Positions 1,027 through 17,807 of a stretch of DNA of 20,589 nt are shown piece by piece. Source of the DNA: a virus; IMG/VR virus record IMGVR_UViG_3300025698_000076, positions 1-20,589 of that record, one strand, 5' to 3'. The number at the start of each line of letters is the position of its first letter. Positions within the stretch are counted from its first letter, which is position 1. Both the position numbers and the translations under genes were made by a program. The notes beneath the pieces are model-generated. The model was not told where the DNA came from. It saw nothing but the letters and a program-made list of their open reading frames with translations, and did no database searches.

Positions 1027-1731
1027 ATGCAATTAATTGAAGTAATCAACGATTTTACAAAGATTCAAACAGCGATTGACGCTGATAAATACACAGATAC
1101 ACCGTTTGCGTTAGCTCGTAAATATGCAAAAATCAATTCACTTGGTTATCCAATGATGAAGATGCAAGACTTAGCCAAAGTTACGCACAAAATAAAAGTA
1201 GAAAACGATATTAATTGGGAAAATAATTCCAACAAATATGAGATATCGGAACAAGGAAAAACAAGAAATATACATGTCTGGGATATGCTTCGTAAAGTTG
1301 AACCAATAAGAGAGAATTACTACGAATCCAATATGAATCCAGACGCTGCAAGTTATATATTACCCGGATCAGAAAGGTATTTAGCTTTTTATAACGGAAG
1401 ACTTGCAAGGACTCCTGCTATGGAAATGACATTTAATGCTCAACGTTGGTATTTAAAGCTAACCGACGTAAAAAAGTACAAAAAAATACCGCCTCCATTC
1501 GTCGCAGAAGCCGCAACAAAAGCAGCTGACAAGTTTGACAAAATGTTTGTCGTAGAACCAGATAAACAAGAATACACTCATGATGGGTTCTCTCTTATCG
1601 ACGATCCGTTATTGATTGGGGTTCTGAATGAGTCGCCAGATACTTTTTTCTTAATCTCTGGCTGGCTAGAAGACTTCAGTATCGAAGACTTCCACAAACA
1701 ATCTACTCAATTAAAAGAACTTTACTCTTGA
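1027..1731 (+). CDS. Hypothetical protein, 234 aa
   Basis: The frame starts at ATG 1027 behind the A-rich leader AACACGAACAAA and ends with TGA at 1729-1731. The protein is soluble-looking, with no signal peptide or membrane segment. It is rich in lysine and aromatic residues, and an acidic C-terminal third contains DDPLLIGV and two phenylalanine-rich stretches. I recognise no family. It is the last gene before the structured RNA region, whose first hairpin begins 7 nt after its stop, so its transcript would end in that structure. It may belong with the methyltransferase operon, but no function can be assigned. Confidence 0.75.
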   Translation: MQLIEVINDFTKIQTAIDADKYTDTPFALARKYAKINSLGYPMMKMQDLAKVTHKIKVENDINWENNSNKYEISEQGKTRNIHVWDMLRKVEPIRENYYESNMNPDAASYILPGSERYLAFYNGRLARTPAMEMTFNAQRWYLKLTDVKKYKKIPPPFVAEAATKAADKFDKMFVVEPDKQEYTHDGFSLIDDPLLIGVLNESPDTFFLISGWLEDFSIEDFHKQSTQLKELYS

Positions 1732-1737
1732 TTAATC

Positions 1738-1882
1738 TACCGATACCAAGTAGAATGTAGTTGTATCGGTAAAGCCTGTGGTAGGGCTAGAGTATATAAG
1801 TATAAGACCTTTCTGTAGGGTTGAGTGATTAAATACTACCACGTATCTTTTTGCTCGTCACTCAGCACTACAGAGGGGTTTT
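1738..1882 (+). ncRNA. Candidate structured RNA with kissing-loop potential
   Basis: This gene-free stretch can fold as follows. P1 is a perfect 9-bp hairpin, TACCGATAC (1738-1746) with GTATCGGTA (1763-1771). P2 is AGCC (1773-1776) with GGCT (1785-1788), loop TGTGGTAG. P3/P4 is a long hairpin, 1804-1818 with 1868-1882 and 1820-1828 with 1858-1866, interrupted by one G-A mismatch and containing a few G-U pairs. Inside its 29-nt loop, ATAC (1833-1836) can pair with GTAT (1843-1846), exposing TACCAC. That hexamer is the exact complement of GTGGTA in the P2 loop, so a 6-bp kissing interaction (7 bp as a simple pseudoknot) is possible. The RNA ends in a T-run. It matches no RNA class I can name. 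It could be an independent small RNA, a structured 3' end of the preceding mRNA, or an attenuator before the replication genes. Confidence 0.55.
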
Positions 1883-1885
1883 TTT
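1804..1885 (+). terminator. Intrinsic terminator before the replication operon
   Basis: The lower stem pairs AAGACCTTTCTGTAG (1804-1818) with 1868-1882, G-rich on the 3' side (CTACAGAGGGG), and is followed directly by seven T residues (1879-1885). The upper stem (1820-1828 with 1858-1866) continues it. This is a textbook Rho-independent layout, although with an unusually long hairpin and large apical loop. It lies 13 nt upstream of the replication protein ATG, so it either ends upstream transcription or acts as an attenuator of the replication genes. Confidence 0.7.
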
Positions 1886-1897
1886 AATAAAAGAAAT

Positions 1898-2602
1898 ATG
1901 TCAGCAAAGGAAATAAACGGTTATGAGTTATCACGCAAGTTCTGGGACTTCTCATTTGATAATCCAGAAAAAGTAAAACCTGCACATGGTGCGGTGTATT
2001 TTTTTGCTATTGAACACAATAATCGCTTGGGATGGAGAGAGAAATTCGGATTTCCTACAGAAATGGCAATGAGTGCAGTCGGAATAAAGAACTGGAGAAC
2101 CTACTCAGGAGTTCTGAATGACTTAGAAAAATGGGGATTCATAGAGTTTCTTGAGCGATCTAAAAATCAGTATTCAGCGAATATTATATCACTTTTTGCC
2201 TATGTAAAAAATACCAAAGCAACTACAAAAGCACTAGACAAAGCAATGCAGAAGCACATACAAAAGCAAGGTACAAAGCAAGTCCGTAGCACTGTAGTCA
2301 TAGATAAACATATAAACCTAAGAACAATAGAACCTATAACCACTAACAAGGGTGACAGTGATTTCGAAAAGTTCTGGGAATTGTACGAAAAAAAAACTGA
2401 TAGAAGTAAATGCGAAAAGAAGTGGGACAAGATCAAGCGAGAAGATAAAGAAAAGATTTTCGATTCTATCGGTGAATATGTAAAAAGCACTCCAGAGTCT
2501 CAGTACCGAAAAAATCCGCTTACTTGGCTAAACGGTGAATGTTGGAACGATGAGATAGTACAAGCAAAGATTCAAAAAACTTTACCTACTGGATTTTATT
2601 AA
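1898..2602 (+). CDS. Phage replication initiation protein, winged-helix N-terminus
   Basis: This 234-aa protein probably binds the phage origin and helps load the helicase. Residues about 8-100 (GYELSRKFWDFSFDNPEKV, AVYFFAIEHNNRLGW, a segment ending in EKWGFIEFLERSKNQYS) match a winged-helix domain I associate with flavobacterial phages and prophages. A polar linker follows, then a C-terminal domain of the type FEKFWELYEKKTDR...KNPLTWLNGECWNDE, as found in many phage replication proteins that partner a helicase. Start ATG 1898 follows an A-rich leader directly after the terminator hairpin. The primase fragment gene begins 1 nt after its stop and the helicase follows, so the three form one replication operon. 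The family recognition is from memory of sequence pattern, not a search. Confidence 0.75.
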   Translation: MSAKEINGYELSRKFWDFSFDNPEKVKPAHGAVYFFAIEHNNRLGWREKFGFPTEMAMSAVGIKNWRTYSGVLNDLEKWGFIEFLERSKNQYSANIISLFAYVKNTKATTKALDKAMQKHIQKQGTKQVRSTVVIDKHINLRTIEPITTNKGDSDFEKFWELYEKKTDRSKCEKKWDKIKREDKEKIFDSIGEYVKSTPESQYRKNPLTWLNGECWNDEIVQAKIQKTLPTGFY

Positions 2603-2603
2603 A

Positions 2604-3131
2604 ATGAAACACAACCCTATCGATATATTCGGAGACGGTTTAGTTCCCTTGCTAAAAGATATGATCAAAGGATCAATATCAGCTAGAAAAGAAATTAAAA
2701 AAGATGTTGAGAATAAAAAAAAGCTGTATAATCGTTCTTCAACCGCTCAAGACTTTTATTTCAGATACTGGATTAGATATTTTAGATTTGATTATGAAGC
2801 GTACTGGAACGATCAAGCACTTACGAACATGGCGAAGTGGTACGATCAGATTGAGAAGTTAACGGACAAGACAGACGCAGACCGAAAAATAGAAAACGCT
2901 AAAGATAAACGAATTGAGTCGGTTATGCGAGAGTATTTCCCTAGTGGTAATTTCAACCGATTAATTTGTTGCCCGCTACACAAAGATAAAACACCAAGCT
3001 TGAAAGTTTATCCGAATACTAATAGCTGGCACTGCTTTGGCTGCCAAGAGGGTGGTGACCCGATTCACTTTATAATGAAACTGCACAACCTAGACTTCAT
3101 GGGCGCAGTTGACCACATACAATATTATTAA
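2604..3131 (+). CDS. CHC2 zinc-finger protein, DnaG primase N-terminal type
   Basis: The 175-aa protein ends in a clear CHC2 zinc-binding domain like the N-terminus of DnaG primases. C123-P-L-H126 and C144-F-G-C147 are the likely zinc ligands, followed by EGGDPIHFIM and a helix. This domain recognises single-stranded DNA template during primer synthesis. The first 110 residues are charged, probably helical and unrecognised. The TOPRIM catalytic domain that makes primers in DnaG is absent: the protein stops about 28 residues after the zinc finger. It cannot be a complete primase by itself, so it may cooperate with host DnaG or with a catalytic subunit outside the window. It sits between replication initiator and helicase genes with 1-nt and 11-nt gaps. 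Confidence 0.85.
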   Translation: MKHNPIDIFGDGLVPLLKDMIKGSISARKEIKKDVENKKKLYNRSSTAQDFYFRYWIRYFRFDYEAYWNDQALTNMAKWYDQIEKLTDKTDADRKIENAKDKRIESVMREYFPSGNFNRLICCPLHKDKTPSLKVYPNTNSWHCFGCQEGGDPIHFIMKLHNLDFMGAVDHIQYY

Positions 3132-3142
3132 TTACTGAAACA

Positions 3143-4033
3143 ATGGATTTACTTGACCAAGTCGTACAGGACATCGAAAAAAAAGAAAATATGAAAGATC
3201 AGTTTTATTCTGGGAAAGAATGCGTGAGTTATGTACTCGACGAAATCCAGAAAAACGATCGAGACAAAATAATAAAATATCCGTACTCAATGATGAACAA
3301 AGCGTTCGAGGGTATATTTCCGACCACGTTTTGCGTCGTTGGTGCAGATACTGGACTTGGTAAATCAGAACTACTGGGACACATTGCTTACAGCGCAGCA
3401 GAGCAAGGCAAAAAAGTTGTTTACTTTGATTTTGAAAACGATGACGGTGATTTTATCATGCGACAAATAGTCAAAAAAACTTCAAAAATGATGAACAAAG
3501 AAATCAGCGTGGCTCGACTTAGAACTATGGTTGAATCAGATGAGATACTGGTTAATAACGTCATGGAAGCAGCCGAAAAAATAGCAGAAACAACCAAGGA
3601 TATGCGTATTTTTAAAAATAAAGACATACCAACGATTGAACAATTCATCGAGATATTAGACACGATTGAAGACGTTGACTTGGTTATAGTGGATCACTTA
3701 CATTATTTTAATTTTGACTCAGCCAAGGAATCACACGCTGTCCAGATTTCCTTGATTATGCGAGAGTTACGAAAAATGACAAAGAAGCGAATACCAATCT
3801 TTGTTGCGAGTCACTTAAAACAAAGACACGGAAACAAATTACCAACAAATTACGATTTATTTGGAAGTTCAAACATCGCAAAAGAAGCAAAAAACGTAAT
3901 ACTCATGAGCCGCAATGAGTCTGGGCAAACAGATTTCCAGATAACTAAAAACCGAGACGGAAAACTTTTAGGACATTTTACCGCCACGTACAACAAAGTC
4001 CTTTGTGAATTACAATTTAATGAAACTTTTTAA
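3143..4033 (+). CDS. DnaB-like replicative helicase, C-terminal ATPase domain only
   Basis: A RecA-fold ATPase expected to unwind phage DNA at the fork. Walker A is GADTGLGKS (residues 67-75). The acidic strand YFDFEND (94-100) matches the position of the DnaB catalytic glutamate. Walker B is LVIVD (180-184), followed by the DnaB-like HLHYF. VASHLKQR (211-218) and FGSSNIAKEAKNVILM match the DnaB late motifs, and TKNRDGKLLGHF corresponds to the basic C-terminal element. At 296 aa it lacks the N-terminal primase-interacting domain of full-length DnaB (about 450 aa), as in some compact phage helicases. Start ATG 3143 lies 11 nt after the primase-fragment stop. The next small gene starts immediately after its TAA. 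Confidence 0.88.
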   Translation: MDLLDQVVQDIEKKENMKDQFYSGKECVSYVLDEIQKNDRDKIIKYPYSMMNKAFEGIFPTTFCVVGADTGLGKSELLGHIAYSAAEQGKKVVYFDFENDDGDFIMRQIVKKTSKMMNKEISVARLRTMVESDEILVNNVMEAAEKIAETTKDMRIFKNKDIPTIEQFIEILDTIEDVDLVIVDHLHYFNFDSAKESHAVQISLIMRELRKMTKKRIPIFVASHLKQRHGNKLPTNYDLFGSSNIAKEAKNVILMSRNESGQTDFQITKNRDGKLLGHFTATYNKVLCELQFNETF

Positions 4034-4449: not shown

Positions 4450-4749
4450 TTAAATAGCAAATATCATTGGAGAATCTTTTTTTAACGAATTATGACTGCC
4501 TTTAACTCTTTGTATTAAACAAAAACTTTTGTCTCGAATAAAAAATTCCTTGTTGTTTCCAAATTTTTTTCTTAAAATTTTTCTAACATCTGTTTCGGTA
4601 ATTGTTTTATTTCTGATTTCGATTGCAAAATCACCAAGATACTTTCCAAAAGATAGTAGCGCCTTTGTCTCGTTTATTTTATTACCAAAACTTAGCCAGC
4701 TTTTAAAAGCTAATAATTGTTTTTTGTTGAATGTTTTTTGTTCTTTCAT
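4450..4749 (-). CDS. Hypothetical leftward protein, 99 aa
   Basis: The frame starts at ATG 4749 (MKEQKTFNKKQLLAF) and ends in TAA at 4452-4450, 15 nt before the HTH gene. Its leader, TTTTTAAACAAACCCA, is almost the same as that of the HTH gene, and a promoter lies just upstream, so the two form a leftward operon. The protein is basic and soluble, with about 20 lysines or arginines. I recognise no domain. Position resembles early regulatory or lysogeny-control genes, but the sequence does not show that function. Confidence 0.62.
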   Translation of the reverse strand: MKEQKTFNKKQLLAFKSWLSFGNKINETKALLSFGKYLGDFAIEIRNKTITETDVRKILRKKFGNNKEFFIRDKSFCLIQRVKGSHNSLKKDSPMIFAI

Positions 4750-6877: not shown

Positions 6878-7074
6878 CCACAAAAGAAAAACAAACAATT
6901 ATTTTTAAATTGAAAAATCCGAAAATAATTCCTAAAAACAAATTACCCGATGAAGCCAATGACCTTGAGCTTTGTCGGGTTTTTAAGTGTACACCGAATG
7001 AGCTAGACGCTCAAGACGCAGTGCGTATTATTAAGATGACGCAGATACTTAATCTTGAAGCTCAACATGGCTGA
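6871..7074 (+). CDS. Tail chaperone T domain, made as a -1 frameshift extension of G
   Basis: From 6871 the -1 frame encodes 67 residues ending QILNLEAQHG and TGA at 7072-7074, overlapping the tape measure ATG at 7067. Joined to the first 101 residues of G it would give a 168-aa GT protein, which in lambda-like phages links the chaperone complex to the tail tube protein. The extension starts lysine-rich and continues with KLPDEANDLELCRVFK and a helix (TPNELDAQDAVRIIKMTQIL), as in other T domains. The only in-frame alternatives are TTG at 6910 or an internal ATG very close to the end. Translation as an independent protein is therefore less likely. Confidence 0.7.
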   Translation, partial: RLTTKEKQTIIFKLKNPKIIPKNKLPDEANDLELCRVFKCTPNELDAQDAVRIIKMTQILNLEAQHG

Positions 7075-15200: not shown

Positions 15201-17309
15201 ATGCTCGAAAAATTAAAAGCAGTTATAAGAAAAGCATTAAGAACAAACGAAGTTGAGTTGGGAGCTTCTGGGACTGTGATACACAGCGGATACATTACCA
15301 ATGATTATATTACCGAACTAACACACCCACAGTCGGTTGATGTGTACGATCAAATGCGAAAATCAGACGCAACGGTTCAAGCGGTTCTAAAGGTTAACAA
15401 GCTCCCGATTCTTGGTAGCGATTTTTATATTGATATTGAGGGCGATGACAAAAAAAGTATTGAAATACAAGAGTTCATTTCTGACGCTATGTTTAACAAG
15501 ATCAAGTTCAAGACAAGTTTCTTACCGCAAGCTTTGTTGATGTTTGATTTCGGGTTCATGTGCTTTGAAAAAGTCTTTGCACTCGATGAAAACAATAAAT
15601 ATTATTACAAAACTTTAGCTCCGAGATTACCAGTTTCATTGGATAAATGGAAACAAACGGAGGGCGACGAAGAAGCTGGAATGTTTCAGTCTGGGTATAA
15701 AAACGACAGATATGTAAGCAGTCACTTAATACCATCGTGGAAACTGGTTCGGTTTGCTTTAAATCAGGAGGGCGATAACTACGAGGGAACAAGTTTGTTG
15801 CGTTCAGCGTATAAGTCTTGGTACTACAAAAGTAATTTAGAAAAGATTGGAGCAATAGCCGCAGAACGTGGATCAGCTGGTTTGCCTTTATTAGAACAAG
15901 AGAAAGGTGGTCGACCAATGGACGAAGCCGAAGCGGACAAAATGAACGAGATCATGGAAAGCGTAAGAGCGAACGCTTCGTCATACATAACTACACCTGC
16001 TGGCTATAAGTTTAGTTTTGCGACTCCAGGCGGTGCTTTTGATTTTCATCCTCAGCTACATTATCACGACAGACAGATTGCAGAGTCAGTTTTGGCACAG
16101 TTTATCAAGACAGGCGGTGAGGGTTCGAGCGGTGGGTACGCTCAAAACAAAATAGACATACAGTTGTTTCTTTTGTCGTTGACTCAGTACGCTAATTATA
16201 TTTGCGGACGTATCGACGAATTAATGATTAAGGAGTTGGTTGATCTTAACTTTGATAATGTTGAGTTTTATCCAAAAATGAAGTTCAAGCCGATTGAGCT
16301 ACGAGATATGACAACTTTTAGTGAATCACTAGAGAGATTAGTAAACAGCGGAACACTAACCGCAGACGTTGACGTTGAGAACTTAGTTCGTGGCGAAATG
16401 GGGTTACCAAACATTGAAGAAAAAGAAATAATCGCACCAAAACCAAATGATTCAAAGTTGTCTATTTCACTTGATAGCCAAAAAAAAAAGTTAGCAGTCA
16501 GTAAACAAGATACGTTTAGGGATTTAACGCTTGCGGAAGAAAAGCTTGATCTTGACGCTTACCGTAGCCAGTTCGAAAAAGGAGAAAAAGAAATATCTGA
16601 TACGGTTGCGATAATGGGTGCGGCTCTTCTATCTGATATAATGAAACGATCAAAAGCGTATTATAACGGTGAGAAGTTTGGAAAATTGGACGATAAAGTA
16701 AAAGAAGTGATCAAGACAAATACAAAAAAACTATCTGAACAACAACTAGAGCAATACGAATTTGGGAAGACTCAAGCGGTTAACGAGATTGGTGTGTCTG
16801 GTCGTATCGCTACACCAAAAGAAGTGAAACAAGTTGCCAAAGACACAGCGGTACTTGAAGCGAATAAATTACAGCAAGATCTAGAAAGTTCGGCACAATT
16901 CACAGTCAACAGCGCAAAACAAAAAGGTGCAAAGGTTACTGAGTCAATGCAAGCGGTGAAGTCTGGTCTTGATGTTATTGTAGCACGTCAAGCAATGTTA
17001 TTTGGAGGACTTCAAACGAGTTCAATGATCAACAAAGCAAAACGAGACGTTCACAATGAATACAAAAGTTTAATAAGTTTTGAGCAATATAGTGCGATCA
17101 TTGATAGCCGAACGAGTGGTATTTGTAGGTCGCTTGATAATCGAGTTGATAAGGTCGGAAACTTGCCAGTGCCACCATTACACGGAAATTGTAGATCAAC
17201 GCTTGTGAGCGTCATGAAAACTCAAGATCCGCAGCCAGAGTTTAATCCAGTACCTAAATCAGTAGAAGAAAAGATTTCGGTTGATCCGTTTAAAACAAAG
17301 GCAATCTGA
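15201..17309 (+). CDS. Portal protein fused to a MuF-like head morphogenesis domain
   Basis: A single 702-aa frame carries two head functions. Roughly the first 420 residues resemble Mu gp29-type portals (SDATVQAVLKVNKLPILGSD near the start, LLMFDFGFMCFEKV, a segment with SWKLVRFALNQEGDNYEGTS, and AESVLAQFIKTGGEGSSGG). The last 70 carry the MuF/SPP1 gp7 signature: IDSRTSGICRSLDNRVDKVG, then PPLHGNCRSTLVSV, with H near 661 and two cysteines. Between them lies a helical, charged linker. Portal forms the twelve-fold gate for DNA, while MuF-type proteins are minor head proteins. I prefer ATG 15201, 47 nt after the terminase stop. A TTG at 15150 would overlap that stop and add 17 residues. The 3' end overlaps a leftward gene by 20 nt. 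Confidence 0.87.
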   Translation: MLEKLKAVIRKALRTNEVELGASGTVIHSGYITNDYITELTHPQSVDVYDQMRKSDATVQAVLKVNKLPILGSDFYIDIEGDDKKSIEIQEFISDAMFNKIKFKTSFLPQALLMFDFGFMCFEKVFALDENNKYYYKTLAPRLPVSLDKWKQTEGDEEAGMFQSGYKNDRYVSSHLIPSWKLVRFALNQEGDNYEGTSLLRSAYKSWYYKSNLEKIGAIAAERGSAGLPLLEQEKGGRPMDEAEADKMNEIMESVRANASSYITTPAGYKFSFATPGGAFDFHPQLHYHDRQIAESVLAQFIKTGGEGSSGGYAQNKIDIQLFLLSLTQYANYICGRIDELMIKELVDLNFDNVEFYPKMKFKPIELRDMTTFSESLERLVNSGTLTADVDVENLVRGEMGLPNIEEKEIIAPKPNDSKLSISLDSQKKKLAVSKQDTFRDLTLAEEKLDLDAYRSQFEKGEKEISDTVAIMGAALLSDIMKRSKAYYNGEKFGKLDDKVKEVIKTNTKKLSEQQLEQYEFGKTQAVNEIGVSGRIATPKEVKQVAKDTAVLEANKLQQDLESSAQFTVNSAKQKGAKVTESMQAVKSGLDVIVARQAMLFGGLQTSSMINKAKRDVHNEYKSLISFEQYSAIIDSRTSGICRSLDNRVDKVGNLPVPPLHGNCRSTLVSVMKTQDPQPEFNPVPKSVEEKISVDPFKTKAI

Positions 17310-17742
17310 TGACATGGATAGATAAAAACAATAGGCTTAAAAAAGAGAACAAAACAAATGAGTAATTAAAAATATTAGTTAATTCGTCTACTGATTTCCT
17401 TTTTTTTAAAATACTTTCACTTTCATGGTTCTCTTTGGTTGAACTGTAATTTTCGTCCCATATTAATATGTCTTTTTCGTAGAGATTGATACATGCCTTG
17501 GTGTGTAAAAATAATAATAAGCAGCATAAGAGGCAGGACACTAAAGAATAGTCAATGAACACACTCCTTTGCATGTCTGTTATAAAAATAATTACGCAAA
17601 ATATAAAAGATATTAACGAGCAAGTTGAAGATAAATTGAATAAATATACTTCTTCTTCGCTTAAGCCTTTTGTTAATTTTGACCGATGGTCATTGTAATG
17701 TTTCCACTCTATTTTCTGAATATCGGTTAGTTGTTTTTTCAT
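17290..17742 (-). CDS. Leftward membrane protein with three helices, cargo-type
   Basis: The frame runs against the head genes and its stop region overlaps the portal 3' end by 20 nt. From ATG 17742 it encodes 150 aa (an in-frame TTG at 17778 would add 12). A charged N-terminus of about 45 residues (MKKQLTDIQKIEWKHYNDHR) precedes three hydrophobic segments: FNLSSTCSLISFIFCVIIFI, YSLVSCLLCCLLLFLHT and YSFVLFSFLSLLFLSIHVI. Between the second and third is a charged loop of about 45 residues. The topology resembles small membrane effectors and superinfection-exclusion proteins, but no family is recognised. Upstream on the minus strand TTGACA and TATCGT are 17 nt apart, a possible promoter that would give a nearly leaderless mRNA. 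Confidence 0.68.
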   Translation of the reverse strand: MKKQLTDIQKIEWKHYNDHRSKLTKGLSEEEVYLFNLSSTCSLISFIFCVIIFITDMQRSVFIDYSLVSCLLCCLLLFLHTKACINLYEKDILIWDENYSSTKENHESESILKKRKSVDELTNIFNYSFVLFSFLSLLFLSIHVIRLPLF

Positions 17743-17807
17743 TGCTTCGACGATATTAAAGGCGGTATCGGTTGTCAATAGTTACACCTTATTAAAATAT
17801 TTAATTA

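Follow-up and report, generated by a model that had tools for sequence, protein, structure and literature searches.

A candidate structured leader RNA with a covarying kissing-loop contact ahead of replication genes in Bacteroidota phages

Described systems and the element of the window

In IncB and IncI-alpha plasmids, a pseudoknot in the repZ leader activates translation and a separate antisense Inc RNA counters it. The CI RNA and seqA-seqC leader of phage P4 control prophage replication by premature termination, which is promoted by RNA-RNA pairing, while transcription from the single promoter of Gifsy-1 IsrK yields both a short RNA, which ends at a terminator, and a longer read-through mRNA on which the short RNA acts (PMC4825925). 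Here an element is described at positions 1738-1885 of the virus record IMGVR_UViG_3300025698_000076, of which the whole analysed stretch of 20,589 bases, with a tail/head/terminase module, is called the window. Based on sequence comparison, we favour with moderate confidence the reading that this element serves the phage replication operon as a structured 5' leader (attenuator) and belongs, as a divergent member, to an RNA family of Bacteroidota phages. Its central feature is a predicted kissing contact (the kiss) between the loop of a small hairpin, H1, and the loop at the apex of an intrinsic-terminator-like hairpin; the two loop strands are called K and K'.

Like the P4 leader, the element is an untranslated stretch before phage replication genes. 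The P4 CI RNA arises by processing of a primary transcript, and its pairing partners are separate copies located up- and downstream, whereas in the kissing leader both partners lie within one unit of about 90 nt, which apparently starts and ends by itself; the two share no sequence or Rfam relation. With IsrK it would have in common a short terminated RNA and read-through from one promoter; IsrK differs in being enterobacterial and in regulating antQ and translation, and to our knowledge no kissing contact with a terminator is known for it. As in the repZ leaders, loops that lie far apart in a replication-gene leader pair with each other. In contrast to these, the partner loop is situated within an intrinsic terminator, and no enrichment or conservation of antisense promoters was found among the elements (12% against a background of 22%).

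Flavo-1, 6S-flavo, Bacteroides-1, Bacteroidales-1 and c4 antisense RNA are structured RNAs of the same hosts or phages (PMC2864571), and none of them was detected by cmscan in the window and the relatives scanned. The first-pass annotation, made from the sequence alone, had recognised no named RNA class, and the Rfam 15 check agreed, giving no match for the window at the gathering cut-off. Permissive scans of the window returned sub-threshold chance matches only, and cmscan gave no Rfam match in nine relatives of class A type (defined below; gathering cut-off), eight further loci and phage 11b. No description of the kissing leader was found in the literature, subscription papers and supplementary alignments lying outside the scope of the search. 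RNAs that control replication and leaders that act as attenuators are both known. What appears new is a kiss that covaries between the first hairpin and the terminator apex throughout a family of phage replication leaders, although HMP_4078 (Fremin and Bhatt 2021, PMC8040213), a 109-bp Bacteroidetes candidate located close to D5-primase and integrase domains of phages, was compared by description only and may be identical with it.

Four nested complementary pairs had been proposed within 1738-1885, and all were recovered at these positions; GTGGTA (1778-1783) is indeed the exact complement of TACCAC (1837-1842). The features, all on the plus strand, are as follows.

1723-1730, plus strand: TACTCTTG, possible degenerate Bacteroidota -7 element with five of the six fixed bases of TAHHTTTG
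1738-1746 and 1763-1771, plus strand: 9-bp hairpin (TACCGATAC/GTATCGGTA), an extra 5' module of the window phage
1773-1788, plus strand: hairpin H1, AGCC (1773-1776) with GGCT (1785-1788), loop TGTGGTAG, K = GTGGTA(G) at 1778-1784
1789-1803, plus strand: A/U-rich linker, single-stranded in the fold
1804-1882, plus strand: intrinsic-terminator-like hairpin, outer stem 1804-1818/1868-1882, middle stem 1822-1828/1858-1864
1833-1836 and 1843-1846, plus strand: apical mini-stem of the terminator hairpin (ATAC/GTAT), displaying TACCAC at 1837-1842
1836-1842, plus strand: K' = (C)TACCAC in the apical loop, 6-bp loop-loop match to K
1879-1885, plus strand: U-tract of the terminator, TTTTTTT

RNAfold gave -54.7 kcal/mol for the element compared with -33.9 +/- 3.7 kcal/mol in dinucleotide shuffles (z -5.6, 0/200). 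The isolated K/K' duplex has -9.1 kcal/mol, a seventh pair being possible only on opening of C1836-G1843. A composite score, combining a small hairpin with a complementary apical loop inside a terminator hairpin, was 67.4 for 1732-1897 and was reached by 0/4000 dinucleotide shuffles (maximum 59.9). Short complementary hexamers are common near terminators in AT-rich DNA, which would suit an ordinary terminator with chance complementarity, but these shuffles, together with the covariation, promoter and position found in about 50 relatives, make that explanation extremely improbable. A simple terminator scan missed the window hairpin because its loop is long. The putative -7 element would place +1 near 1735, 3 nt ahead of the extra hairpin; matches of this grade arise in about 6% of the 7-position blocks of the window, so it is weak. 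A pattern scan of viral contigs for the H1 of the window itself returned 119 unrelated stretches, the lone one near TACCAC without the hairpin/terminator layout, and was discarded.

Relatives, transcription-unit-like anatomy and covariation

About 52 elements of the same plan were identified in Bacteroidota phage contigs and in three isolates, Flavobacterium phage 11b and the Polaribacter phages Danklef and Freya, the latter two encoding integrases (PMC8776804). In the shared plan a promoter is followed by H1, which begins at the predicted +1, and then by a linker and a terminator hairpin whose apical loop is complementary to the H1 loop over 6-10 bp. Most loci were fetched from viral contigs or genomes through the replication initiation (rep) protein. 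A loose descriptor scan gave 936 chance matches, and a scored descriptor that checked for the mini-stem and the promoter was used instead. The Bacteroidota promoter motif was present just upstream in 36/44 matches scoring above 65 and 13/24 at 60-65, and in about 2-3% below 50, TAnnTTTG occurring at 1.6% of random positions.

TAHHTTTG, whose G lies at -5, is the promoter consensus known from Flavobacterium johnsoniae (PMC6847099). Full TAnnTTTG was found upstream of 48 of 50 elements, and the predicted +1 lies at most 2 nt from the H1 base in 38 of 44. At the stem end, a U-tract (at least 6 T in 8 nt) is present in 95% of the 39 relatives tested versus 8.6% in the background. From promoter to terminator the element forms an exact unit of about 90-110 nt, a co-oriented open reading frame (ORF) starts 5-49 nt after the stem (median 21.5), and none of the 50 gaps between them contains the promoter motif. 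In its predicted parts, the anatomy resembles that of a transcription unit, with promoter, H1 at +1, linker, terminator hairpin and U-tract.

MAFFT misaligned the elements across all classes, so the classes were aligned separately. In class B the H1 loop reads ..YYYAC and the terminator loop GTRRR..; class A, with the window and loci L005, L010 and L013 (L numbers denote loci of the collection), has K = GTRRR.. and K' = ..YYYAC, that is, the same plan with the kiss strands exchanged. A structure-blind MAFFT alignment of class B put both loops in register. Here 95% of the cells are paired and 20 of 28 pairs show double changes, while 0/500 shuffles matched the paired cells or the covariation score of the class B structures and slid controls had 20-56% of cells paired. 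The kiss helix is 99-100% paired, with double changes at 6/7 or 6/8 pairs, and covariation was likewise strong in a 19-sequence set. In the relatives, both bases changed at 4/5 pairs of the H1 stem, and the terminator stem and the mini-stem covary at 7/11 and 3/4 pairs, respectively. In 24 aligned elements, an unsupervised search for helices found covariation only in the terminator stem, H1 and the kiss. The check suggested by the first-pass annotation, covariation between 1778-1783 and 1837-1842, was run on homologues, where the equivalent kiss covaries strongly. Conservation of the four helices, kiss included, is well supported by these comparisons.

Since the first set had been picked for complementary loops, two further sets were gathered without that demand. 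Covariance model R2, built from class B, omits the kiss; all its full-length matches above about 25 bits nevertheless carry 6-9 bp of exact K/K', among them L134, which was outside the seed set and has a new pair, CCTTCGAC/GTCGAAGG. A pattern of the linker only gave nine loci, several near-identical, and all nine have 8-9 bp of K/K'.

Unpaired bases are also conserved in class B: an A-rich linker, TTAAAGAAGTTATTA, a tail AYYATA in the H1 loop (e.g. L115:2712-2813) and an internal loop UGAA / GGAU which could form tandem G-A pairs. These could point to possible protein or tertiary contacts.

In host chromosomes, R2 matched in one of 567 genomes (299 + 71 + 197) from three families drawn around Bacteroidota genomes, in a scan with strict filters and without a positive control for two of the families. 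This sole match, L161:317-402, came from a 1.9-kb locus in the 299-genome family drawn around a Christiangramia genome. In prophage-like rep loci of Bacteroidota genomes (L057-L080), an element near rep is mostly absent (present in L058 and L067), unlike in many viral contigs. No promoter-bearing element was found in phage 6H. A weak R2 match at 6899-6985 of the window has no kiss and was taken as chance.

On architecture and synteny, the window copy is very probably a divergent member of this family. It agrees with class A in loops, terminator, position and downstream gene: K/K' pairs over at least 6 bp, the terminator lies less than 50 nt before a co-oriented gene with a promoter-free gap, and the downstream operon is homologous. 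The terminator stem is longer than those of the relatives. The 9-bp hairpin at 1738-1771 is present as first described, but falls outside the conserved core; relatives open with the kissing hairpin at the predicted +1, and no extra hairpin between promoter and kissing hairpin was seen in them.

Downstream genes and proposed mode of action

The region of the element (1732-1897) sits between an ORF of 234 amino acids with unknown function (1027-1731) and the replication-initiator gene, whose start codon is 12 nt past the U-tract and 15 nt past the stem. Co-oriented initiator, zinc-ribbon primase-like and DnaB-type helicase genes follow, bearing out the initial placement ahead of a replication operon.

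1898-2602, plus strand: replication initiation gene of helicase-loader type (PHROG 270)
2604-3131, plus strand: next operon gene, primase-like protein with DnaG-type zinc ribbon (PF01807, 9e-19)
3143-4033, plus strand: DnaB-type helicase (PF03796, 1e-22)

The rep gene of the window resembles those of Bacteroidota phages, and its protein is 40-60% identical to rep proteins behind other elements. Nearest relatives of the terminase include Bacteroides and Phocaeicola phages (33-35% identity), while protein searches using DnaB and ORF 1027-1731 found no relatives. Two minus-strand ORFs, 4450-4749 and 17290-17778, occur in the otherwise plus-strand window; the former has no Pfam or PHROG match.

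Behind the other elements the gene is usually a replication initiator or primase, from several families. The following ORF may be rep itself, a small ORF or an inserted homing endonuclease ahead of rep (the latter in Danklef), or a replication gene of another family: phrog_11233, an initiator outside the PHROG family of the window (L161), phrog_6251/1701 with one ORF between (L020), phrog_2514 (L031) or a Prim-Pol primase (L170). GIY-YIG or HNH-like homing endonuclease genes stand directly behind the element at L056:3604-3972 and L009:4553-5008, both before rep, and at L163, which indicates that the spot behind the terminator tolerates insertion.

The gap before the gene is so short that the operon can be expressed only by read-through of this terminator or from somewhere further upstream, which makes an attenuator the most economical reading. 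Host RNA polymerase would start at H1, and K in the H1 loop would pair with K' once the latter exits the polymerase, so that the terminator hairpin forms docked on H1. Most transcripts would end at the U-tract as an RNA of about 90-110 nt; the replication genes, lacking a promoter of their own, would be expressed by a regulated fraction that reads through. Most likely, the kiss either determines terminator efficiency or is a contact that a factor of phage or host, or a further copy of the RNA, makes or breaks to switch on replication. Transcription, termination and regulation of the leader are all predicted in this scheme.

Several observations weigh against the attenuator reading or the assignment of the window copy to the family. 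The best promoter in the window is TACTCTTG, not a consensus one, the conserved linker is missing, and covariance models R1 and R2 gave no match at 1738-1885, both having been built from other sub-groups (R2 scores class A weakly or not at all; E 0.003-0.05 for L005, L010 and L013). Fetching loci through rep favours finding elements beside rep, the exceptions being L161 (model search) and L162-L170 (pattern). Some elements precede other genes: the first element of L015 (469-552) lies before a DUF3440/PAPS-reductase operon, that of L125 (1170-1260) before a ParB/MT-A70 methylase, and those of L097 and L098 before small ORFs. L015 and L125 each have a second element before rep (L015:3543-3626, L125:2894-2980), which differs from the first in loop code. 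The element at L016:163-255, on the minus strand, opposes the rep gene of that locus and points towards the contig end, so that no downstream gene is visible. No competing or anti-terminator helix was found in the covariation scan of the 24 aligned elements; the ligand-sensing option raised at first likewise gains no support, as no alternative anti-terminator helix covaries.

The two other early proposals, an attenuator of the replication genes and a phage small RNA, came out as the two best readings. If the element were an independent small RNA that acts in trans and has a promoter and terminator to itself, the kiss would give it a compact and stable scaffold, and the next gene would be served by leakage or upstream promoters. 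The exact promoter-to-terminator unit, the L016 element opposite to rep and the elements before unrelated genes agree with this; the co-oriented gene 5-49 nt on, behind a promoter-free gap in 50/50 cases, and the lack of excess K/K' matches elsewhere in flanking phage DNA (21 observed vs 18.4 expected) speak against it, and we regard it as rather unlikely.

The loops are diverse, with 42 different K sequences in 52 elements. Diversifying selection on K was considered and rejected, because the kiss varies about as much as the other stems. The diversity, and the differing K within one phage, could fit an RNA negative feedback in the style of phage P4 or antisense plasmids: K of a terminated leader would bind in trans to K' on a newly made transcript and force it to terminate, so that replication is controlled and superinfecting phages are excluded according to loop type. 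Such feedback would also accord with the position before replication genes and with a discrete terminated RNA, which would carry both loops. Compensatory drift, however, explains the diversity of a kiss not clearly more variable than other stems, the intramolecular partner competes, 24% of cross pairs share a match of at least 6, and no antisense promoter is conserved; the feedback is judged improbable. Equally doubtful is a self-specific RNA repressor, where the loops of the terminated leader would pair with new transcripts of the same phage, set the replication level and exclude superinfecting phages of the same loop code.

Finally, the folded 5' end could shield the mRNA as a 5' untranslated region stabiliser or translation element, with the U/A-rich stretch behind it serving initiation without a Shine-Dalgarno sequence. 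The structure begins at the predicted +1, the start codon follows within 5-49 nt, and initiation in Bacteroidota favours unstructured A-rich regions (PMC6847099). A GC-rich stem with an immediate U-tract is nevertheless a textbook intrinsic terminator and a costly route to an A/U-rich ribosome site, and this explanation appears highly unlikely.

Meaning for Bacteroidota phages

The structured RNA family described here is absent from Rfam 15 and sits at the replication control point of Bacteroidota phages, a large group from sea and gut that is still poorly understood. Because three isolates with cultured hosts carry the element, its mechanism is testable at once. A self-specific repressor, if true, would represent an RNA incompatibility system in tailed Bacteroidota phages with dozens of loop types. 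If the attenuator reading is confirmed, it would establish a form of transcription attenuation in which the kissing contact is intramolecular and involves the terminator itself; it would also provide a compact regulated leader for Bacteroidota genetics.
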